From Candidatus Muproteobacteria bacterium RIFCSPHIGHO2_01_FULL_65_16 (GTDB lineage Bacteria > Pseudomonadota > Gammaproteobacteria > Acidiferrobacterales > Sulfurifustaceae), in the NCBI GenBank assembly GCA_001785175.1, contig MFSY01000011.1:1-14628 (forward strand): a stretch of 14,628 bases of DNA, written 5' to 3'. Below, one piece after another: positions 5,400 to 13,631 of the stretch. The notes below the pieces were generated by a model that saw only the letters and a list, made by a program, of their open reading frames with translations, had not been told where the DNA came from and made no database searches. Position numbers and translations under genes: made by a program. Numbering within the stretch: position 1 is the stretch's first letter; the number at the start of each line of letters is the position of its first letter.

Positions 5400-5403
5400 G
5401 CCA

Positions 5404-5498
5404 AAGACAGGACTGAGGACTGAGCGCTAAGGACTGAGAAGTGAATGCCTGTCTTTCTTCGCCCTTAGTCCTCAGCACTCGGTCCTCAGTCCTTTCTG
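5404..5498 (+). repeat. Heptad-array palindrome between tRNA-Val and tRNA-Asp (element 1)
   Basis: The whole gap between the two tRNA genes is one inverted repeat of 7-nt units. Left arm: six heptads in register at 5404-5445, consensus GACTGAG, with exact copies at 5411, 5418 and 5432. Right arm: seven heptads at 5450-5498, consensus CTCAGTC, the reverse complement. The core arms 5411-5438 and 5464-5491 match at 24 of 28 positions around a 25-nt spacer. A second, perfect 9-bp inverted pair (AAAGACAGG 5403-5411, CCTGTCTTT 5448-5456) interleaves with the first, so the RNA could adopt competing or knotted folds. The element starts 4 nt after the tRNA-Val CCA end and stops 6 nt before tRNA-Asp. 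Function unknown. Confidence 0.85.
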
Positions 5499-5504
5499 TG
5501 ATCC

Positions 5505-5581
5505 GGAGCGGTAGTTCAGTTGGTTAGAATACCGGCCTGTCACGCCGGGGGTCACGGGTTCGAGCCCCGTCCGCTCCGCCA
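5505..5581 (+). tRNA. tRNA-Asp (anticodon GTC)
   Basis: This is a 77-nt cloverleaf with encoded CCA. The acceptor stem GGAGCGG / CCGCTCC lies at 5505-5511 and 5571-5577. The D stem is GTTC/GAAT. The anticodon stem CCGGC/GCCGG carries loop CTGTCAC with anticodon GTC. The T stem ACGGG/CCCGT carries TTCGAGC. The discriminator is G5578, as expected for tRNA-Asp, and CCA is 5579-5581. A strong terminator follows 14 nt later. Confidence 0.97.
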
Positions 5582-5594
5582 TATAGAAGAATAG

Positions 5595-5621
5595 AAGGCG
5601 AGGCCGCCGCCTCGCCTTTTT
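5595..5621 (+). terminator. Rho-independent terminator after tRNA-Asp
   Basis: A perfect 10-bp stem (AAGGCGAGGC 5595-5604 with GCCTCGCCTT 5609-5618) encloses a 4-nt loop and ends in TTTTT (5617-5621). It closes the tRNA transcript and insulates ppiD. Confidence 0.92.
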
Positions 5622-5649
5622 AGCTATCAGCTAATAGTTATTAGCTTTT
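5622..5649 (+). repeat. Heptad repeat with small palindrome upstream of ppiD (element 6)
   Basis: Four tandem 7-nt units in perfect register start at 5622, 5629, 5636 and 5643: AGCTATC, then AGCTAAT, then AGTTATT, then AGCTTTT. AGCTAATA (5629-5636) and TATTAGCT (5639-5646) form a perfect inverted repeat, so the array also folds on itself. It abuts the terminator T run and lies just before the predicted ppiD promoter. The period matches elements 1 and 5, but the unit sequence is different. It is shorter than the others and has no separate opposed array. Confidence 0.65.
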
Positions 5650-5652
5650 CCG

Positions 5653-5682
5653 TTGCCACTCCCGCGGCGCATCCGGTAAAGT
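5653..5682 (+). promoter_or_regulatory. Predicted sigma-70 promoter of ppiD (near-leaderless)
   Basis: TTGCCA (5653-5658, 5/6) and TAAAGT (5677-5682, 4/6) are separated by 18 nt. A start point 6-8 nt past the -10 box falls at 5689-5691, that is, at or next to the ppiD ATG. No Shine-Dalgarno sequence is seen before that ATG, which agrees with a leaderless mRNA. Confidence 0.5.
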
Positions 5683-5690
5683 ACCCGCCC

Positions 5691-7580
5691 ATGCTGACCA
5701 AGATCCGCGAAAAGATTCAGGGCGTCATCGCCACCGTCATCCTGTTGCTGGTCGTCATCCCGTTCGCGCTCTGGGGCATCAATTCCTATTTTGAGGGCGG
5801 GTCGAGCGTCAATGTGGCCACCGCCGACGGCGTGGAGATCAGCCAGCGCGATTACCGCGCCGCCATGGACCAGTTCCGCGGCCGCATGGACCCGGCCGTG
5901 TTCGACAGCCGCGAGTTCAAGGCGCTGGTCGTGGACGGGCTCATCGATCAGGCGCTGCTGGTGCGCGACGCGCGGGCGCGCGGTTACCGCATCGGCAACG
6001 AGCGGCTCGGCCGGTTGATCCGGGAGAAGCCCTATTTCCAGCGCGACGGCAAATTCGATCCCCAGCTCTATGAGGCGCTGCTGCGCCGCGAAGGCATGAG
6101 CACGGTCGAGTTCGAGGCGCGGCTGCGCGAGGAAAACATGACCGGCCAGCTGCAGGCCGCCTTCGGCGAAACCGCGATCGTCACCGAGGCCGAAGTCACC
6201 GCGCTCCTGCGCCTGTGGCGGCAGGAGCGCGAAGTGGTCTACGCCGTGGTGGACCCCGAGCGGTTCGCGGGCAAGGCCGTTGTCACCCCCAAGGCGATAG
6301 AAGAATATTATTCCGCGCGCGCGGACGCCTTCCGTGCGCCGGAAGAGGTGCGCATCGAATACCTGCGGCTGGCGGCCGAGGATTTCGTCAAAAAGTATCA
6401 GCCGAGCGAGGACGAGCTGCGCAAGGCTTATGCCGAGGAGGCCGCGCGCTACACCCGCCCGGAAAAACGGCGCGCCAGCCACATCCTGATCGCGGTGGCG
6501 GCGAACGCCGCCAAGGAAGAGGTCGAGCGCGCCCAGGGCCGGATCCGCGAGCTCGAGCGCCAGGCGCGCGCCGGCGCCGATTTTGCCGCGCTCGCCGGGA
6601 AGCACTCGCAGGATCCCGATTCCGCCGCCAAGGGCGGCGATCTCGGCGAGATCGGGCGCGGGGTGCTGCCCAAGGAACTCGAAGCCGCGATTTACGTTCT
6701 CAGGCCGGGCGCGATCAGTCAGCCGGTGCGGACCGAGTTCGGTTTTCATCTGGCCAAATTGACCGGCTTCACGCCGGAGACGCGCAAGCCCCCGCACGAA
6801 GCGCGCAAGGAGCTGACCGACCTCGTGCGCAAGCGCCGGGGCGAGGAGCGTTTCCTCGAGGAAGCCGAGAAGTTCCGCAATCTCGTTTACGAGCATCCGG
6901 AAGGCCTCGGGCCCGCCGCGCAGGCGCTCGGACTCGCCATCCAGCGCAGCGAATGGTTCGGCCGCGCCGGCGGCGCCGGCGTCGCGGCATATCCCAAGGT
7001 GGTGGAGGCGGCGTTTCATCCGGAGGTGCTGGGCAAGACCCGCAACAGCGACGCCGTCGAGATCAATCCCGAGACCATGGTGGCCGTGCGCGTGCTGGAT
7101 CACCGGCCGGCGGCGCTCAGGCCGCTGGCGGAGGTGCGCGCCCAGATCGAGCGCACGCTCAGGTTGCAGCAGGCCGGCGAGCTGGCGCGGGCGGCGGCGA
7201 CAGACTGGCTCAAGCAGCTCCAGGCCGGCGCCGCGCTCGAGGCTCTGGCCCGGAGCCACGCGCTCAAATACCAGGGACCCAGGCTCGTGACGCGCGAGCG
7301 GCTGGACGGCCGCGATCGCCGCGTCGTCGAGGCCGCCTTCCGCGCGCCGCGGCCCCAGACGGGCAGGGCGGTGTACGGACTCGCCGATCTCGGAAGTCAG
7401 GGCTACGCCGTTTTTGGTTTAAAGCGCGTGCTCGAGGGCCGGCCGGAAAAGGCCGACTCGGCGCTGCGTGAGCGCGCGCGGCGATTGCTGCTCAGCCGGC
7501 GCGGGATCGAATACTACGCGCTCTATCGCGCGGGCCTGCGGCAGAAGGTGGACATCAAGATTTACCAGGACCGCCTCTGA
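5691..7580 (+). CDS. ppiD: Peptidyl-prolyl isomerase-like periplasmic chaperone PpiD
   Basis: This is an inner-membrane-anchored chaperone that assists proteins emerging from the Sec translocon. The 629-residue product compares with 623 in E. coli. A short cytoplasmic N-terminus (MLTKIREKIQ) precedes one membrane segment at about residues 11-34. Next is a SurA-N-like chaperone region (about 35-250), a parvulin domain at about 259-358, and a C-terminal chaperone region. The parvulin domain has ASHIL with His264, GGDLG, and FGFHLAKL with His353. E. coli PpiD lacks both His and is reported to be inactive as an isomerase, so this copy could retain activity. However, the usual active-site aromatic is Leu here (VLPKELEAAI). 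ATG 5691 has no Shine-Dalgarno site. The stop converges on fabI with a palindromic element between. Confidence 0.94.
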   Translation: MLTKIREKIQGVIATVILLLVVIPFALWGINSYFEGGSSVNVATADGVEISQRDYRAAMDQFRGRMDPAVFDSREFKALVVDGLIDQALLVRDARARGYRIGNERLGRLIREKPYFQRDGKFDPQLYEALLRREGMSTVEFEARLREENMTGQLQAAFGETAIVTEAEVTALLRLWRQEREVVYAVVDPERFAGKAVVTPKAIEEYYSARADAFRAPEEVRIEYLRLAAEDFVKKYQPSEDELRKAYAEEAARYTRPEKRRASHILIAVAANAAKEEVERAQGRIRELERQARAGADFAALAGKHSQDPDSAAKGGDLGEIGRGVLPKELEAAIYVLRPGAISQPVRTEFGFHLAKLTGFTPETRKPPHEARKELTDLVRKRRGEERFLEEAEKFRNLVYEHPEGLGPAAQALGLAIQRSEWFGRAGGAGVAAYPKVVEAAFHPEVLGKTRNSDAVEINPETMVAVRVLDHRPAALRPLAEVRAQIERTLRLQQAGELARAAATDWLKQLQAGAALEALARSHALKYQGPRLVTRERLDGRDRRVVEAAFRAPRPQTGRAVYGLADLGSQGYAVFGLKRVLEGRPEKADSALRERARRLLLSRRGIEYYALYRAGLRQKVDIKIYQDRL

Positions 7581-7607
7581 CGCAGCCGTATCAGCGGTCG
7601 CCAAATC

Positions 7608-7682
7608 CACCGCAGAGACGCGGAGGCGCGGAGTTATTGAAACAAAGACGGATTTTCTCTGCGTCTCTGCGCCTCTGCGGTG
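7608..7682 (+). repeat. Octad-array palindrome between convergent ppiD and fabI (element 2)
   Basis: The left arm holds three 8-nt units at 7611-7634 (consensus CGCRGAGR). The right arm holds three at 7656-7679 (TCTCTGCG at 7656 and 7664, CCTCTGCG at 7672). Arms 7608-7633 and 7657-7682 match at 22 of 26 positions. All four differences are A/G transitions, and three of them would be G-U pairs in RNA read from the + strand. The spacer is about 22 nt and A-rich. It is placed where a bidirectional terminator for ppiD and fabI would be expected, and no canonical terminator is seen in 7581-7754. Whether it terminates is untested. Confidence 0.85.
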
Positions 7683-7754
7683 AAAACCATAATTTCAGGA
7701 ATTGTTCGCAGCGCCCTTGATGTTTTTCCGCCGCGGCGCGGACGTCGGGGGGCC

Positions 7755-8558
7755 TCAGGGCTTGAGCAGTTTGCCGTAGTCCAGGCCGATGGCGACGGTG
7801 TTGAAGCCGGCGTCCACATAGGTGATCTCGCCCGTGACTCCGGAGGCCAGGTCCGAGCACAGGAAGGCGGCGACGTTGCCGACCTCGTCAATCGTCACGC
7901 CGTGTCCGAGCGGCGCCATCAGGTCGTTATAATCCAGCAGCTTTTTGAAGTCGTTGATGCCCGCGGCCGCGAGCGTGCGGATCGGGCCGGCGGAGACGGC
8001 GTTGACGCGTATGCCGTCGTGCCCGAGCGCCTGGGCGAGGTAGCGCACGTTGGCCTCGAGGCTGGCCTTGGCCAGGCCCATGATGTTGTAGTTTGGTATG
8101 GAGCGGTCGGCGCCGATGTAGGTCAGGGTGAGCAGCGCCCCCTTGCGCCCCTGCATCATGGCGCGCCCGGCCTTGGCCAGCGCGGTGAAACTGTAGGAGC
8201 TGATTTCGTGCGCGACCCGGAATCCCTCGCGCGTCGTGACATCGGCGAAATTTCCGGACAGCAGCTCGCGCGGGGCGAAGGCGACGGAATGCACAATGAT
8301 GTCGAGGCCGTCCCAGTAATCGTCCAGGCGTGAAAACACCGCCTCGATCTCCGTGTCGCTGGCCACGTCGCACGGCAGGATGATGTCCGATTTCGTCTGG
8401 GCCGCGAGCTTCTCGACACGCTCCTTGAGCTTGTCGTTCTGATAGGTGTATGCGAGCTCGGCGCCTTCCCGGTGCATGGCCTTGGCGATGCCCCAGGCGA
8501 TGGAGCGGTCGCCCGCCACGCCGACGATCAGCGCCCGTTTACCTGTCAGAAATCCCAT
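7755..8558 (-). CDS. fabI: Enoyl-[acyl-carrier-protein] reductase (NADH) FabI
   Basis: This enzyme reduces trans-2-enoyl-ACP in the last step of each fatty-acid elongation cycle. The 267-residue product is close to the E. coli length (262). It has an SDR fold with the atypical FabI nucleotide motif ([16 protein letters not shown], residues 10-25), a CDV acidic site at 63-65, and catalytic Tyr147, Tyr157 and Lys164 in [29 protein letters not shown] and the C-terminal VDAGF are present. The position of E. coli Gly93, where substitutions give triclosan or diazaborine resistance, is Ala93 here (HSVAFAP); Ala is natural in some FabI proteins. GGAG (complement of 8567-8570) precedes the ATG by 8 nt. 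It is transcribed toward ppiD and divergently from the transporter operon. A possible promoter upstream is too weak to call. Confidence 0.96.
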
Positions 8559-8657
8559 ATTGTCATCTCCACAACGGCTTTTGCGTTAGAGTTGTTATGT
8601 TCCCTGCCGGCGCCGACCAATAACGGGTCTGTCGGTATTGCGTCCGAGCAAATTCAG

Positions 8658-8691
8658 CCGCTACAGTAGCGGAATTTCCCGCCTGCGGGAA
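8658..8691 (+). other. Two adjacent short hairpins in the fabI/transporter gap
   Basis: CCGCTA (8658-8663) / TAGCGG (8667-8672) is followed at once by TTCCCGC (8676-8682) / GCGGGAA (8685-8691). Both are perfect, with loops of 2-3 nt. No T tract follows on either strand. They sit about 100 nt upstream of fabI and about 140 nt upstream of the solute-binding protein gene, so they could be protein-binding palindromes for divergent control, or RNA structures in a leader. I see no gene in 8559-8828; the rest of the gap is element 3. Confidence 0.4.
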
Positions 8692-8726
8692 GGGGGTGCG
8701 GCGGAGCGCTGCGAGCGGCAGGAGAG

Positions 8727-8799
8727 CGCAAAGATTCTTCTATTGATGATTATCCATGCTTTTCTTTGCGTCCTTCGCGTCTTTGCGGCAAATAATCAT
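8727..8799 (+). repeat. Unit-array palindrome upstream of transporter operon (element 3)
   Basis: The right array holds TCTTTGCG (8763-8770), the 9-nt unit TCCTTCGCG (8771-8779) and TCTTTGCG (8780-8787). The left side has only one matching unit, CGCAAAGA (8727-8734). A nested perfect inverted pair, ATGATTAT (8746-8753) and ATAATCAT (8792-8799), brackets the right array. The unit closely resembles that of element 2 (CGCAGAGA against CGCAAAGA), making these two the same subtype. The degenerate left arm suggests decay. Confidence 0.65.
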
Positions 8800-8828
8800 A
8801 CTTACTTAATCGGAACTTCTTGACGGAC

Positions 8829-11006
8829 ATGGGCCAAACGAATTCATACAGGCGCGCTCTGTTGCTGCTCGCGCTGGCCGCGCTGTCCTGCAACGCCCGG
8901 GCCGAGTGGAACAATCCGTATCCGGCGGCGGAGGAAGGGAAGAACATTCTGTACACGGCGTTCCGCGAGCGCCCCAAGCATCTCGATCCGGCGCGCGCCT
9001 ACAGCTCCAACGAATATGATTTCATCGCCCAGATCTACGAGCCGCCGTTCCAGTACCATTATCTCAAGCGGCCGTACGCGCTCGCGCCGCTGACCGCCGT
9101 CGCGCTGCCGCGGCCGGCGTATCTCGATACCCAGAGTCGGCGCCTGCCGCCGGACGCGCCGCCCGCCGCCGTCGCCTACAGCGTCTATGAGATACGCATC
9201 CGGCCCGGGATTTACTATCAGCCGCACCCGGCCTTCGCCCGCGACGCCGCGGGCAAGCTTCTGTACCACGCGCTCGACGAGCGCGCGCTCGCCGGCAAAT
9301 ACGCCATCGCCGACTTTCCGCGGACCGGCACGCGCGAGCTGGTCGCCGCCGATTATGTCTACCAGATCAAGCGTCTGGCGCACCCCAAGCTTCACTCGCC
9401 CATCCTGAGCGTCATGGGCGAATACATCGTGGGCATGAAGGACTACGCCGCGACACTGACGCGGGCCTACGCCGATGTCGCCGGCGGGCGCGAGGACGGG
9501 GTGTATCTGGATCTGGCGCGCTACCCGCTCGCGGGCGCCGAGGCGGTGGATCGCTATACCTATCGCGTGAAGATCCGCGGCGTCTACCCGCAGATCCGCT
9601 ACTGGATGGCGATGCCGTTTTTCGCCCCGATGCCGCCCGAGGCCGAACGTTTTTTCTCCCAGCCCGGCATGCAGGCGCGCAATCTCACGCTCGACTGGTA
9701 TCCCGTCGGCACCGGGGCGTATATGCTCACGGTCAACGACCCGAACCGTCGGATGGTGCTCGAACGCAACCCCAATTATCACGACGAGTTCTACCCGCGC
9801 GCGGGCGAGCCGGCGGACGCGGGCCGGGGCCTGCTCGCCGACGCCGGCAAGCGGCTGCCGCTCATTGACAAGGTGGTGTTCAGCCGCGAGAAGGAGGGCA
9901 TCCCCTACTGGAACAAGTTCCTGCAGGGCTACTACGACCGCTCCGCGGTGCTTACCGAGAGCTTCGACCAGGCGGTCCGCCTCACCGGCAGCGGCGACAC
10001 CGACGTGACCGAGTCCATGAAGCAGAAGGGCATCCGCCTGCTCACGAGCGTCGCCGCCTCGACCTATTATCTCGGCTTCAACATGCTCGACCCGGTCGTC
10101 GGCGGTTACGGCGAGCGCGCGCGCAAGCTCCGGCAGGCCGTCTCCATCGCCATTGATTACGAGGAGCAGATCTCGATCTTCCGCAACGGCCGCGGCATCG
10201 CCGCCCAGGGCCCGCTGCCGCCCGGCATTTTCGGTTACGAGGACGGCTGCGCCGGCAGCAACCCGCACGTGTACGACTGCGTGCGCGGCGTACCGCGGCG
10301 CAAGCCGATCGAGTTCGCGCGCCGGCTGCTCTCCGAGGCCGGCTATCCGGACGGACGCGACGCGCGCACCGGCGCCCCGCTGACGCTCTATTTCGAAACC
10401 GCGGCCACCGGCCCGGAGGAGAAGGCGCGCCTCGACTGGATGCGCAAGCAGCTGCAGAAGTTGAACGTCCAGCTCGAGGTGCGCGCCACCGATTACAACC
10501 GCTTTCAGGAAAAGATGCGCAAGGGCGACGCGCAACTGTTCGAGTGGGGCTGGAACGCGGACTACCCGGACCCGGAGAATTTTCTGTTTCTGCTCTACGG
10601 CCCGAACCGCAAGGTCGGCGCGGACGGCGAGAACGCCGCCAACTACGACAATCCCGAGTTCAACCGTCTGTTCGAGCGCATGAAGAACATGGAGAACGGT
10701 CCCGAGCGGCTGGCTATCATCCGCCGGATGCTGGACGTGGCCCGCCGCGACGCGCCCTGGGCCTGGGGCGTGCACCCCAAGCTGTTCACGCTCGAGCACG
10801 CCTGGGTGCTCAACGCCAAGCCCAACAACATGGCGAACAACACGCTCAAGTACCTGCGGCTCGAGCCCGCGCCGCGCGCGCGCGACCGCGCGGCCTGGAA
10901 CCGGCCGGTGCTGTGGCCGGTGGCGGCGGTGTTGCTGCTGCTGGCGGCGGGCGCCGCGCCGGCGGTGATCGCCTATCGCCGGCGCGAGCGGACGGTGCGC
11001 CGGTGA
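8829..11006 (+). CDS. Peptide-type ABC transporter solute-binding protein (family 5) with C-terminal membrane anchor
   Basis: This is a 725-residue extracytoplasmic solute-binding protein of SBP_bac_5 (OppA/DppA/YejA) type. A signal sequence (RRALLLLALAALSCNARA, ending in an ARA cleavage site before Glu-Trp) is followed by the binding domain. Family signs include RPKHLDPARAYSSNEYDF near the start, LGFNMLDP in the middle and WNADYPDPENFLF near residues 573-585. It is longer than OppA (about 540) or YejA (about 600). The C-terminus is unusual: a hydrophobic segment (about 693-716, VLWPVAAVLLLLAAGAAPAV) followed by YRRRERTVRR, a typical membrane stop with a positive inside tail. It would tether the protein to the inner membrane. 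The start is ATG 8829; an in-frame TTG at 8820 has a slightly better ribosome site and cannot be excluded. The stop overlaps the next gene by 4 nt. The substrate is inferred to be a peptide. Confidence 0.88.
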   Translation: MGQTNSYRRALLLLALAALSCNARAEWNNPYPAAEEGKNILYTAFRERPKHLDPARAYSSNEYDFIAQIYEPPFQYHYLKRPYALAPLTAVALPRPAYLDTQSRRLPPDAPPAAVAYSVYEIRIRPGIYYQPHPAFARDAAGKLLYHALDERALAGKYAIADFPRTGTRELVAADYVYQIKRLAHPKLHSPILSVMGEYIVGMKDYAATLTRAYADVAGGREDGVYLDLARYPLAGAEAVDRYTYRVKIRGVYPQIRYWMAMPFFAPMPPEAERFFSQPGMQARNLTLDWYPVGTGAYMLTVNDPNRRMVLERNPNYHDEFYPRAGEPADAGRGLLADAGKRLPLIDKVVFSREKEGIPYWNKFLQGYYDRSAVLTESFDQAVRLTGSGDTDVTESMKQKGIRLLTSVAASTYYLGFNMLDPVVGGYGERARKLRQAVSIAIDYEEQISIFRNGRGIAAQGPLPPGIFGYEDGCAGSNPHVYDCVRGVPRRKPIEFARRLLSEAGYPDGRDARTGAPLTLYFETAATGPEEKARLDWMRKQLQKLNVQLEVRATDYNRFQEKMRKGDAQLFEWGWNADYPDPENFLFLLYGPNRKVGADGENAANYDNPEFNRLFERMKNMENGPERLAIIRRMLDVARRDAPWAWGVHPKLFTLEHAWVLNAKPNNMANNTLKYLRLEPAPRARDRAAWNRPVLWPVAAVLLLLAAGAAPAVIAYRRRERTVRR

Positions 11007-11983
11007 TCGCCTATATCGTCCGCCGGCTGCTGCACGCCGTGCCGATCCTCGTCGGCGTGAACCTGATCACGTTCGCGCTGTTTTTCTTCGTCAACAGCCC
11101 GGACGACATGGCCCGCATCCACCTGGGCGTGAAGCGCGTCACGCCCGAGGCGATCGCCAAGTGGAAGGAGGACCGCGGCTTCAACCGGCCGCTGTTCTAC
11201 AACGCCGCGGCCGCGGGCGCGGACAAGGTCGCGGACACGATCTTCTTCCGGCACTCGGTGCGCCTGTTCGCCGGCGATTTCGGCCGGTCCGAGGACGGGC
11301 GCGACATCCGGCGCGAGATCTTCCAGCGCATGTGGCCGAGCGTGGCCATCGCCCTGCCGACCTTCGCCGTCGGCATCCTGGTGTACATCACGTTCGCCAT
11401 GCTGCTCGCTTTTTTCCGCGGCACCTACCTGGACGCGTGGGGGGTCGTGGCCTGCGTCGGCATGATGTCCGTCTCGACGCTGTTCTACGTCATCGGCGGA
11501 CAGTACCTGGTGAGCAAGCTGTGGCATCTCGTGCCGATATCCGGCTACGACGCCGGCGGCCTGCACGCGCTCAAGTTCCTGGCGCTGCCGGTGATCGTGG
11601 GCGTGGTGAGCGGCGTCGGCTCGAGCACGCGGCTCTACCGCAGCTTCTTTCTCGAGGAGATCGGCAAGGACTACGTGCGCACCGCCCGCGCCAAGGGACT
11701 GTCCGAGCCGCGCGTGCTGTTCCGCCACGTGCTCGGAAACGCGCTGATACCGATCCTGACCGGGGTCGTGGTCGTGATCCCGCTGCTGTTCGTCGGCAGC
11801 CTGATCATGGAGTCGTTCTTCGGCATCCCCGGCCTCGGCAGCTACACGATAGACGCCATCACCTCGCAGGACTTCTTCGTCGTGCGCGCCATGGTGTTCC
11901 TGGGCGCGGTGCTATATATCGTCGGGCTCATTCTCACCGACATCAGCTATTCGCTGGCCGATCCGCGGGTGCGGCTGGAATAA
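11003..11983 (+). CDS. Peptide-type ABC transporter permease, DppB/OppB/YejB family
   Basis: This is a 326-residue integral membrane permease of BPD_transp_1 type. The N-terminus IAYIVRRLLHAVPILVGVNLITFALFFFV is the characteristic first membrane helix of DppB/OppB proteins. The cytoplasmic coupling (EAA) loop that contacts the ATPase is clear: KDYVRTARAKGLSEPRVLFRHVLGNALIP. The C-terminal LTDISYSLADPRVRLE is also typical. The start is GTG 11003, which overlaps the TGA of the upstream gene (GTGA), so translation is probably coupled; no separate Shine-Dalgarno site is evident. The open frame continues upstream inside the previous gene, but that part is the shadow of another frame. It is followed by a 151-nt gap filled mostly by a palindromic element. 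Confidence 0.93.
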   Translation: MIAYIVRRLLHAVPILVGVNLITFALFFFVNSPDDMARIHLGVKRVTPEAIAKWKEDRGFNRPLFYNAAAAGADKVADTIFFRHSVRLFAGDFGRSEDGRDIRREIFQRMWPSVAIALPTFAVGILVYITFAMLLAFFRGTYLDAWGVVACVGMMSVSTLFYVIGGQYLVSKLWHLVPISGYDAGGLHALKFLALPVIVGVVSGVGSSTRLYRSFFLEEIGKDYVRTARAKGLSEPRVLFRHVLGNALIPILTGVVVVIPLLFVGSLIMESFFGIPGLGSYTIDAITSQDFFVVRAMVFLGAVLYIVGLILTDISYSLADPRVRLE

Positions 11984-11991
11984 AACGGCAA

Positions 11992-12121
11992 TTCACAGGA
12001 TTAACAGGATTTTTCAGGATTTACAGGATTAAACCGTTGCGGAAATTACATCAGGACATTTTTATGCCTTCACAAGAATTAATCCTGTTAATCCTGCGGA
12101 ATCTTGTTAATCCTGTGAAAT
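11992..12121 (+). repeat. 9/10-nt unit-array palindrome between the permease genes (element 4)
   Basis: The left array holds four CAGGATTAA-type units starting at 11996, 12005, 12015 and 12024. The right array holds four TTAATCCTG-type units starting at 12079, 12088, 12097 and 12107. Counting from the outside inward, both arms have unit lengths 9, 10, 9, so even the one-base insertion is mirrored. Outer flanks also pair (ATTCA with TGAAAT). The spacer is about 45 nt. The element is AT-rich against GC-rich neighbours and occupies most of an intra-operon gap. The downstream permease ATG lies 14 nt beyond it. Confidence 0.88.
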
Positions 12122-12134
12122 CGGATCTTGTCTT

Positions 12135-13526
12135 ATGCCTTTTCAGTTAGTCTTCCTGTGGACCGACGTATTGATCTACGTGCTGCTCGCGGCCGTGATC
12201 GGCTTCGGGCTTTACGCCGCGCGCCACGAGCATCTGCGCGCGCCCTGGCGCCTGGTGGCGCGCCGGCCGCTGGCCGCGGCCGCGGCCGTGGTGCTGGCGG
12301 CCTATGCCGCGGTCGGGCTGCTCGATTCCTTCCACTTCCACGCGCGCCTGGCGGGCGGGGACGGGCGCTACTCCGCCGAGGTGCGGAGCCTGCTCGACGT
12401 GCTCGCCGCGCCGCTGCGCGCGCGCACGGAGAAGACCTACTCCGCGCCGTTCGCCACCCACGCCTACACGAAAGAGACGGTCGAGCATCCGGACGGGCGG
12501 GTCGCGCGCGAATACCCGCGCCTCGAGCACGGCGGCGCGCATCTCGAGGACCCGGGCGGGCGCGCGGCCGACATCGCGGCGCGCGCCGCGCTGGCGACGC
12601 TCGCCGGCCTCGGCCTGTGGGCGGTCGCGGTTGCGGGCCTCGTCGCCCTGCGGCGCCGGCGCGGGGAGACGCCGGCGTCGGTCTGGCGGCGATTTGCCCG
12701 CGGCGAGGATGAAATCCCGTGGCGCACGCTGCTCGTCACGCTCGGCGTCGTGCTCGTGCTCGCCGCCAACGCCGTCGGCCTGTCGTTTTACTATCACGTC
12801 TTCGGCACCGATCAGGTGGGCCAGGACGTGTTCTACCGCTCGCTCAAGAGCGTGCGCACCGGGCTGGTCATCGGCACGCTCACGACGCTCGTGATGTTGC
12901 CGTTCGCGCTGCTCTTCGGCATCGCGGCCGGCTACTTCCGCGGTTGGGTGGATAATATCATCCAGTATTTTTACACCACCCTGAACTCGATCCCGTGGGT
13001 GCTGCTCGTCGCCGCCTCGATCCTGAGCCTGCAAGTGTACATGGCCAACAATCCCGAGGCCTTCAATACCACGGCCGAGCGCGCGGACATGCGCCTGTTG
13101 TTCCTGTGCCTGATCATGGGCGTCACCAGCTGGACCGGCCTGTGCCGCCTGCTGCGCGGCGAGACCTTCAAGCTGCGCGAGGGCGATTACGTCCAGGCGG
13201 CCCGGGCGCTGGGCGCGAGCCACGGCGCCATCATGGCGCGCCACCTGTTGCCCAACGTCATGCACATCGTGCTCATCACCGTGGTCCTCGACTTCAGCAG
13301 CCTGGTGCTGGCCGAGGCGGTGTTGTCCTATGTCGGCGTCGGCGTGGATCCGACGATGGAGAGCTGGGGCAACATGATCAACGGCGCGCGTCTGGAGATG
13401 GCGCGCGAGCCGATGGTGTGGTGGAGCCTGACGGCGGCGTTTGTGTTCATGTTCGGGCTGGTGCTGGCGGCGAACCTGTTCGCCGACGCGGTGCGGGACG
13501 CGTTTGATCCGAGATTAAGAAAGTAG
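12135..13526 (+). CDS. Peptide-type ABC transporter permease, DppC/OppC/YejE family, with N-terminal extension
   Basis: This is a 463-residue permease, well above the usual 300-340. The C-terminal 270 residues are a normal DppC-type core: FGTDQVGQDVFYRS at 223-236, membrane helices, and the EAA coupling loop LREGDYVQAARALGASHGAIMARHLLPN. They end with LAANLFADAVRDAFDPRLRK. Ahead of this are extra segments: hydrophobic helices at about 5-29 and 45-63, a soluble charged stretch (about 66-146), and further helices at about 152-172 and 198-217. YejE proteins also have an insert before the GTD motif, so part of this may be family-typical. The ATG at 12135 has only a weak GGA 9 nt upstream. Its stop codon TAG (13524-13526) lies inside the first heptad of element 5. 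Confidence 0.9.
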   Translation: MPFQLVFLWTDVLIYVLLAAVIGFGLYAARHEHLRAPWRLVARRPLAAAAAVVLAAYAAVGLLDSFHFHARLAGGDGRYSAEVRSLLDVLAAPLRARTEKTYSAPFATHAYTKETVEHPDGRVAREYPRLEHGGAHLEDPGGRAADIAARAALATLAGLGLWAVAVAGLVALRRRRGETPASVWRRFARGEDEIPWRTLLVTLGVVLVLAANAVGLSFYYHVFGTDQVGQDVFYRSLKSVRTGLVIGTLTTLVMLPFALLFGIAAGYFRGWVDNIIQYFYTTLNSIPWVLLVAASILSLQVYMANNPEAFNTTAERADMRLLFLCLIMGVTSWTGLCRLLRGETFKLREGDYVQAARALGASHGAIMARHLLPNVMHIVLITVVLDFSSLVLAEAVLSYVGVGVDPTMESWGNMINGARLEMAREPMVWWSLTAAFVFMFGLVLAANLFADAVRDAFDPRLRK

Positions 13527-13612
13527 CAAGTAGCAAGCTGCAAGTTACAAGTAAACAACAAAAACACAATAGTACTTGCCACTTGATACTTGCTACTTGT
13601 CACTTGTAACTT
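13521..13612 (+). repeat. Heptad-array palindrome between permease and ATPase genes (element 5)
   Basis: The left array has five heptads at 13521-13555 (AAGTAGC at 13521 and 13528, then AAGCTGC, AAGTTAC and AAGTAAA). The right array has six at 13571-13612 (ends ACTT; GCTACTT at 13592). The spacer is 15 nt and A-rich. Every unit begins AAGT or AAGC on the left and ends ACTT on the right, with the variation confined to the other three positions. The first heptad contains the permease stop codon. The ATPase ATG follows 19 nt after the last unit. Confidence 0.87.
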
Positions 13613-13631
13613 GCCGTTGGCGAAGAAAACG

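Follow-up and report, generated by a model that had tools for sequence, protein, structure and literature searches.

The first 14,628 nucleotides of contig MFSY01000011.1 from Candidatus Muproteobacteria bacterium RIFCSPHIGHO2_01_FULL_65_16 (contig C11, 1-14628; the window) contain six short arrays of tandem 7-10 nt units, most of them arranged as palindromes between genes. The question raised by this locus is whether the arrays exceed chance and what kind of element they represent. The elements are real and lie well beyond chance. They are largely of a known kind, yet wider than any description that we found, with several unit families that have one form in common and share gene gaps and phyla. 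The families in the home genome (F1, F2, F34, F5, and F6) are probably small mobile DNA-hairpin passengers, mostly harmless, that are gained and lost behind genes. The home genome (G000) is a 1.7-Mb draft of 135 contigs that is 79% complete. The six elements (E1-E6) and two adjoining features are listed by position.

5402..5500, no strand: E1, F1 palindrome with unit AGGACTG / AGTCCTC and period 7, between tRNA-Val and tRNA-Asp.
5622..5649, no strand: E2, short F2 heptamer array, AGCTATC / GCTGATA, with a weak hairpin, between tRNA-Asp and ppiD.
7608..7682, no strand: E3, F34 octamer palindrome, CTYTGCGY, between the convergent genes ppiD and fabI.
7683..7708, plus strand: tail of E3, GAAAATCATccTTTCAGcAATTTTTCGAGG type, conserved in other E3 copies (BLAST and alignment).
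8727..8799, no strand: E4, half copy of the F34 octamer element whose array is the right arm only, in a divergent gap.
8804..8820, minus strand: IS5-like terminal inverted repeat that borders E4 on the right, matching GGAAGCTCTGATTAAGT with at most 4 mismatches.
11992..12119, no strand: E5, F5 palindrome, ACAGGATTA / TAATCCTGT, with periods of 9 and 10, flanked by two permease genes in an ABC operon.
13521..13613, no strand: E6, F6 heptamer palindrome, AAGTAGC / ACTTGCT, between the permease and ATPase genes of the ABC operon that holds E5.

The autocorrelation of each element at lags 7-10 was compared with 2000 Markov shuffles, and a stricter longest-run score was compared with 400 shuffles. 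The best autocorrelation of E1, E3, E5, and E6 was equalled by 0 of 2000 shuffles in each case. The longest-run score was reached in 0 of 400 shuffles for E3 and E6, and gave p = 0.0125 for both E1 and E5. Peaks were at lag 7 in E1, E2, and E6, at lag 8 in E3, and at lags 9, 10, and 19 in E5, which therefore has more than one strict period; E4 had no clear peak. The RNA folding z-scores of E1 to E6 were -8.4, -2.8, -7.3, -0.5, -11.5, and -4.8. Taken alone, E2 is marginal (p = 0.0135 at lag 7, p = 0.375 by the run score, fold z -2.8), but its F2 family is abundant in the home genome. E4 by itself shows no significant periodicity (p = 0.58; run score p = 0.125; fold z -0.5). E4 is real as a family member because the home genome holds fuller copies elsewhere. 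Overall, E1, E3, E5, and E6 qualify as strong palindromic arrays, E2 as a short one, and E4 as a damaged copy. The units of the five families are AGGACTG (F1), AGCTATC (F2), CTYTGCGY (F34), ACAGGATTN (F5), and ACTTGCN (F6); E3 and E4 belong to one octamer superfamily, F34.

The first-pass annotation, made from the letters of the window, had described six arrays in strict register that share a form and no sequence. Its arrays are borne out beyond shuffles for E1, E3, E5, and E6; E2 is marginal by itself and E4 fails by itself. A single period describes E1 and E6 (lag 7) and E3 (lag 8), and not E5 with its three lags. The absence of a common sequence held only in part, in that E3 and E4 are one superfamily and E3-E6 are dispersed with common spacers or tails. 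The elements are lower in GC than the window as a whole (0.53, 0.29, 0.59, 0.40, 0.35, and 0.36 for E1 to E6, compared to 0.65 for the window). Improved gene calls place all six between genes as the annotation had them, apart from the first 6 nt of E6 (13521-13526), which overlap the end of the preceding gene and provide its TAG stop. Their settings are as varied as claimed: between tRNAs (E1), between a tRNA and ppiD (E2), convergent (E3), divergent (E4), and inside an ABC operon (E5 and E6). The arrays were also correctly set apart from CRISPR, where unique spacers of constant length would be expected; the units here adjoin head to tail without spacers.

A unit scan of stretches from 40 of the 135 home contigs (595,152 bases, with ten Markov shuffles as the control) identified 122 elements: 54 of the F34 octamer, 32 of F2, 22 of F6, 11 of F5, and 3 of F1. 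These counts are a lower bound because the scan missed E2 and E4. The elements comprise 181 arms, compared to 11 in the ten shuffles combined; the first-pass annotation had named equal numbers of arrays in shuffled sequence as the outcome that would count against it. Each of the five families has a nearly fixed arm order. In two-arm elements the order was the same in 21/21 for F34, 10/10 for F5, 17/17 for F6, 1/1 for F1, and 8/9 for F2; in the ninth F2 element both arms point one way. The elements are about 30-150 bp long, with a density of roughly one per 5 kb in the home genome. A BLAST comparison of 50 home loci showed that copies of E3, E4, E5, and E6 share spacers and tails besides the units, and the similarity among E3 copies extends beyond the right arm to about position 7708. 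E1 and E2 matched only themselves. Most families are dispersed by sequence, so their content is not made anew at each site. Of 67 pairs of neighbors less than 4 kb apart, 30 were of a single family, compared to 20.0 expected by label shuffling (p = 0.006). Contig C20 (L050, 1200-5550) carries five F6 palindromes within 4.3 kb of one gene row that resembles rsfS/nadD-proA-holA-lptE-leuS, and it looks as though one family spread locally. Repeats of all kinds account for 24,095 of the 595,152 sampled bases.

The positions of the 122 elements relative to genes were counted from codon-model gene calls. The gaps that hold them are tandem in 83 cases, convergent in 16, and divergent in 4; 2 elements lie within genes and 17 at contig ends. 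E4, which is outside the 122, would make a fifth divergent case. Divergent gaps are depleted: their 4 elements compare to an expectation of 21.4 when gaps are weighted by length (p = 2e-6) and of 17.9 when gaps are counted by number (p = 7e-5). Elements lie at a median of 16 nt from the 3' end of a neighboring gene (n = 115) and of 34 nt from a 5' end (n = 91).

Orthologous gaps were compared in ten genomes of the family, the home genome included; the gap lengths are extrapolations from tblastn. The gap between ppiD and fabI, which holds E3, is 3-6 nt long in five of the ten (G011, G013, G014, G015, and G019). It is 142-174 nt long in the other five, and is filled by F34 in G000 (E3) and G001, by F5 in G018, and by a further family, F7, in G005 and G016. 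The yejB-yejE gap, the site of E5, is 4-6 nt long in seven of the ten genomes. It is filled by F5 in G000, by one F5 arm in G016, and by another family, F8, in G001.

ppiD-fabI gap of G005 and G016: F7, palindrome of the tenfold unit AACGCAGATG / CATCTGCGTT.
yejB-yejE gap of G001: F8, palindrome of the heptamer ACGAGGG / CCCTCGT.

The gap of E2 contains an F5 palindrome in G001 in place of the F2 array. The gap at C11 18874-19011 contains an octamer element with IS5-like ends in the home genome. G005 and G011 have a bare octamer palindrome there, and G019 has none. Thus, identical short gaps are occupied by different families in close relatives, and the clean presence or absence that the first-pass annotation suggested looking for is evident at ppiD-fabI. 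This gap is a natural experiment, with 3-6 nt in some close relatives and three different families in others. The sharing of gaps falls short of proving targeting because G000 holds about one element per 5 kb and there would be selection against other sites. Two elements have opposite orientations in two genomes. E1 and its counterpart in the same gap of G001 are one element inverted (scores of 106 in inverted and 71 in direct orientation, with 40 as the best of 200 shuffles), and the F7 elements of G005 and G016 in the ppiD-fabI gap are inverted including their outer ends (171 inverted, 76 direct, shuffles 45). A flip in place via the folded palindrome and an independent insertion into the same few bases are notable either way. 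G001 also has a pure tandem run of nine GGACTGA units that lacks an inverted arm (contig C85, 17627-17689, L383); in other genomes that gap holds MITEs (miniature inverted-repeat transposable elements), other palindromes, or nothing.

The families are unevenly distributed among relatives, and some genomes carry tens to hundreds of copies. F2 gave 315 matches in G000, 74 in G001, 31 in G019, 10 in G008, and at most 2 in the remaining 56 of 60 relatives; the reversed F2 control gave 0 in the home genome. With up to 3 mismatches, TGATARCTGATARCTGATARCTGA had 160 matches in G000 and its reversed control 0. F5 gave 413 matches in G018, 347 in G001, 157 in G005, which is a single contig and 99% complete, and 1 in G014, a congener of G005 and G018. 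The octamer is patchy, with a match in 20 of the 60 relatives. One relative has an uninterrupted perfect tandem run of the octamer CTTTGCGC (G035, C47, 10349-10411).

Searches across phyla were made with the octamer, F5, and F2; F1, F6, F7, and F8 were searched inside the family. The reversed octamer is a weak control because it is similar to a rotation of the octamer (303 reversed matches compared to 750 real in G081, and 57 compared to 50 in G076), and the clean control was the reversed 20-mer CTYTGYGTCTYTGYGGTGAA. The 20-mer itself matched 77 stretches of viral contigs, and its reversed letters matched 0. In the genome collection it matched at least 120 stretches. By record titles, the matches listed include Planctomycetota, Acidobacteriota, Chloroflexota, several classes of Proteobacteria, Bacteroidota, and Cyanobacteria, and also Verrucomicrobia, Nitrospinota, Poribacteria, Aminicenantes, Sumerlaeota, Fibrobacteres, WOR-3, and others; isolates among them are Calothrix NIES-4105, Propionivibrio limicola, and Thiocystis minor. 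Identical octamer units with an identical terminal GGTGAA recur in many phyla. The first 80 of the at least 120 octamer loci gave 74 usable right arms, 44 with a left arm upstream and 4 with the same motif downstream; for all 120 loci among the matches listed these numbers are 61 of 114 and 11 of 114. The variable letters of the arms also match in these loci (58 compared to 3 and 55 compared to 6; Fisher p 2e-13 and 6e-10), with p-values that are too small because A and G are the only letters that the motif permits at these two positions and because single genomes contribute several arms; in the last 40 loci alone p was 6e-4 and 5e-3. One of the 120 loci listed, in a Clostridia genome, resembles a lone chance match. 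An archaeal contig, from Candidatus Methanoperedens (L275), has the octamer end motif next to another octamer arm, which a binning error may explain.

A set of 39 genomes, 38 of which were selected for a contig matching the 20-mer CTYTGYGTCTYTGYGGTGAA, was used to count families. The three-unit octamer match is absent from 7 of these 39. F5 is present in 12 of the 39, home included, with 2 reversed-control matches overall; its matches number 99 in a gammaproteobacterium, 57 in a Chloroflexaceae genome, and 17 in a Nitrospinota genome. F2 was counted only where clearly above its reversed control, because the control exceeded the F2 pattern in G065, G084, G089, and G092; it is present in 17 of the 39, with 304 matches in a Planctomycetia genome and 261 in a Thermoanaerobaculales genome. 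F5 was also found in 5 stretches of viral contigs, counted without a reversed control. The octamer end motif with at most 1 mismatch occurs in 37 of 299 genomes in an even sample of the home phylum (17 of the 238 of high quality); the octamer end is therefore widespread but not common. A typed octamer hairpin of 60 nt had no match among plasmids, though the low-complexity filter may have masked the query. The first-pass annotation had noted strings of this kind in many environmental genomes, and the searches bear this out for the F2 heptamer, the octamer, and the nonamer of F5.

The nearest published description is that of the GGGAATC arrays of Xanthomonas, and the TAACTGA repeats are also close. 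PMC4692102 describes degenerate tandem heptamer arrays of GGGAATC, (GGGANTN)n, in Xanthomonas and of GGGGA(C/T)T in Nostoc. It gives 186 and 183 arrays in two genomes, 89-93% of them intergenic and close to the preceding gene, with 16% in convergent and 7-8% in divergent positions and 70-75 inverted convergent pairs per genome as potential stem-loops; the single G-rich unit is discussed there in terms of G-quadruplexes. The elements described here are likewise degenerate short tandem units, intergenic, and partly in inverted pairs. In contrast, they have several units of 7-10 nt that are not G-rich, some of them cross-phylum, with different units in one orthologous gap; none of the units of the five families is of the GGGAATC G-quadruplex type. 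TAACTGA direct repeats are reported from Beggiatoaceae, Cyanobacteria, and Bacteroidetes in PMC4679880, with a patchy distribution and 7-nt indels. They lie mostly right upstream of start codons in the first genome described; horizontal transfer is suggested there without a mechanism, and an excess of heptamers is cited as possible slippage. The F2 unit TAGCTGA is one base from TAACTGA. The likeness is limited to F2 and E2, and the inverted arms and gene-end positions found here are unlike those direct repeats. Six literal unit strings, which do not cover every variant, had 0 occurrences in 5.39 million PMC papers. We found no description of the octamer and nonamer palindromes or of the cross-family pattern in the open-access literature, a scope that leaves out most subscription journals.

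Explanations other than mobile hairpins were weighed against these data. Transcribed hairpins maintained by selection, such as terminators, attenuators, or protection of mRNA 3' ends, would account for the strong hairpins predicted for four of the six elements, their location near gene 3' ends, and the avoidance of divergent gaps. However, the right arms of E1, E3, E5, and E6 are not followed by a run of T, and a terminator scan that covered loops of 3-8 only placed no site on those arms; its sites adjoin only E2, which has a terminator-like stem (5596-5612) directly before it. In tandem gaps, which hold 49 of the 57 two-arm elements, the transcribed strand has 92 G-U wobbles compared to 82 A-C mismatches (p = 0.50, 199 transversions). 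G-U is not above A-C, and there is therefore no sign of selection on an RNA hairpin. The same gap is empty of elements in many close relatives. Within the window, two tRNAs alone reach the gathering score of Rfam 15, and the sub-threshold matches at E1, E3, and E5 are eukaryotic microRNA hairpins. Selected RNA elements are an unlikely explanation. No Rfam family or terminator accounts for the arrays; a match of all elements to one known repeat or terminator family was the other outcome that the first-pass annotation had named as counting against it. IS5-type MITEs have a YTAR target duplication, and the GGAAGCTCTGATTAAGT-like ends found here are presumably of this type. All arrays might be the interiors of non-autonomous IS5-type MITEs, whose terminal inverted repeats would be flanked by a 4-bp target duplication. 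The 595 kb contain 25 GGAAGCTCTGATTAAGT-type ends, of which about 9, E4's included, continue into an octamer unit by eye, and 11 matches to the E3-type end. Identical 4-bp flanks were seen by eye in three of seven two-ended cases (CTAA, CTAA, and TTTA), and the octamer copy at C11 18865-19012 is flanked by CTAAG on both sides. But the three flank-matched cases enclose non-octamer sequence, so that an octamer target duplication rests on one case. Such ends and duplications were not seen for F1, F2, F5, F6, or most of F34, and bare F34 palindromes occupy the same gap in other genomes and occur in other phyla. The single transposase gene found in a search confined to DDE_Tnp_1 has none of these ends in its 2.7-kb locus. 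MITE interiors are insufficient for E1, E5, and E6 and improbable as a general account; part of F34 in the home genome, E4 included, may move as a MITE. Three octamer-free sequences with GGAAGCTCTGATTAAGT-like ends and identical 4-bp flanks are MITE-like (L038 4762-4892, L042 17515-17644, and L310 2852-2982).

REP, BIME, and REPIN elements are intergenic palindromes near gene 3' ends, with several families in several phyla, according to PMC3733652. Mobilization of the arrays as REP/REPIN elements by RAYT (Y1) transposases would fit their REP-like position, near gene 3' ends and rarely divergent. It would also fit the TAG stop provided by the E6 unit; stops provided by GTAG REPs are likewise reported in PMC3733652. 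Against this, the elements exceed 20-40 bp, their arms are arrays, and no unpaired GTAG or CGTC foot was seen in the sequences read; the GTAG of F6 sits inside its unit. The number of Y1 genes does not correlate with the number of octamers across the 39 genomes (rho 0.07, p 0.66), and octamers are present in 4 of 5 genomes without a Y1 match. Of the Y1 loci read outside the home genome, which are a subset of the matches, 1 of 29 has an octamer, F5, or F2 array, and the 3 Y1 loci of the home genome lack all five families. Y1/RAYT is not supported as the mover, and this explanation is very improbable. The first-pass annotation had suggested testing for a co-occurring nuclease, transposase, or DNA-binding gene; no shared nuclease or transposase was found, and Y1/RAYT, the one tested across genomes, is unsupported. 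The remaining explanation dispenses with mobility: slippage and template switching in place would have produced arrays independently many times. The register of units varies and the pure nine-unit GGACTGA array exists, as it would predict, and PMC4679880 gives a precedent in its heptamer excess and indels in 7-nt steps. However, non-orthologous copies of E3-E6 retain conserved spacers or tails, octamer units with the identical terminal GGTGAA recur across many phyla, and the 77 viral stretches with the 20-mer compare to 0 for its reverse. Independent origin in place is therefore quite improbable.

Mobile hairpin passengers are the preferred reading, which builds on direct observation of dispersed families, arm order, presence or absence in gaps, different families at one gap in relatives, one element in both orientations at one gap, gene-end preference, and cross-phylum units. 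Array length would shift via replication slippage in register, and the arms could let a single strand fold back, giving inversion through template switching. New copies would arise when a folded single strand is inserted behind genes during replication by an enzyme acting in trans, and insertions within genes or between divergent promoters would be purged by selection. Several results weigh against this reading. No transposition event was seen in the genomes compared, and no enzyme was linked to the elements among those looked at (Y1/RAYT and one DDE_Tnp_1 gene). Judged by sequence identity the copies are old, because the best relatives of E3 among the home loci are 88-89% identical by BLAST. 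Target duplication above control was not found for bare F2, F5, F6, or F34, whose ends are uncertain; a 6-nt flanking repeat was present in 1 of 17 F6 elements, and F1 was tested on one element only. In the home genome, the two arms of an F2, F5, or F6 element resemble each other no more than they resemble arms from other elements, and in F34 the difference is slight (p = 0.03). Since arms of one element are hardly more alike than random pairs, these data suggest that copies are inherited whole and not constantly corrected. The excess of upstream left arms holds and is weaker in the remaining 40 octamer loci, used as a test (17 of 40 upstream compared to 7 of 40 downstream). The two inversions may be independent insertions, and two other shared gaps have direct orientation: F34 between ppiD and fabI in G000 and G001 (64 compared to 29) and the octamer in G005 and G011 (200 compared to 89). 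The idea of the first-pass annotation that one process makes such arrays survives to the extent that unrelated families obey the same rules and replace one another in orthologous gaps; it is not helped by the search result, which gave no shared nuclease or transposase, and by the part of the octamer family that lies beside IS5-like ends.

A broader and more doubtful possibility is that the elements form a pan-bacterial class of very small DNA parasites, palindromes with arms built of tandem 7-10 nt units, with each unit family cross-phylum and copied independently of RAYT. A copying enzyme or replication-linked process would then leave no target duplication and place copies just behind stop codons, and the families would be rivals for the same gaps, where their copies would invert. 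Short dispersed repeats occupy gene gaps and contig ends in uncultured bacteria, and the papers found treat single units in few lineages. If one class explains these repeats, the same few units would have crossed phylum borders, and common environmental bacteria would contain an undescribed copying system.

Other features were observed in the window and the home loci. ARAGORN gives a minus-strand tRNA-Glu at 1990-2087 of the window, within a long gene resembling clpX; it is probably false because Rfam gives no tRNA there. A palindromic repeat without tandem units, GCAGGTTGCTGAAAAACTCGTTTTTCAGCAACCTGC..., is present at L292 17234-17404, L045 4824-4993, and L041 15656-15832, with at most 11 BLAST partners in the sample. 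A palindrome of the form GTTGGGTTTCGCT...CTCAACCCAACCTAC adjoins E3-type elements at L042 2780-3260 and near L011 2130. A larger repeat consists of an octamer arm, F2 heptamers whose number varies between copies, and a conserved stretch, TTGAATCGTGCCCC... (L035 5700-5909, L046 14720-14874, L293 5550-5748, and L305 7307-7589 and 17894-18180). This repeat is often at contig ends and therefore probably breaks the assembly.

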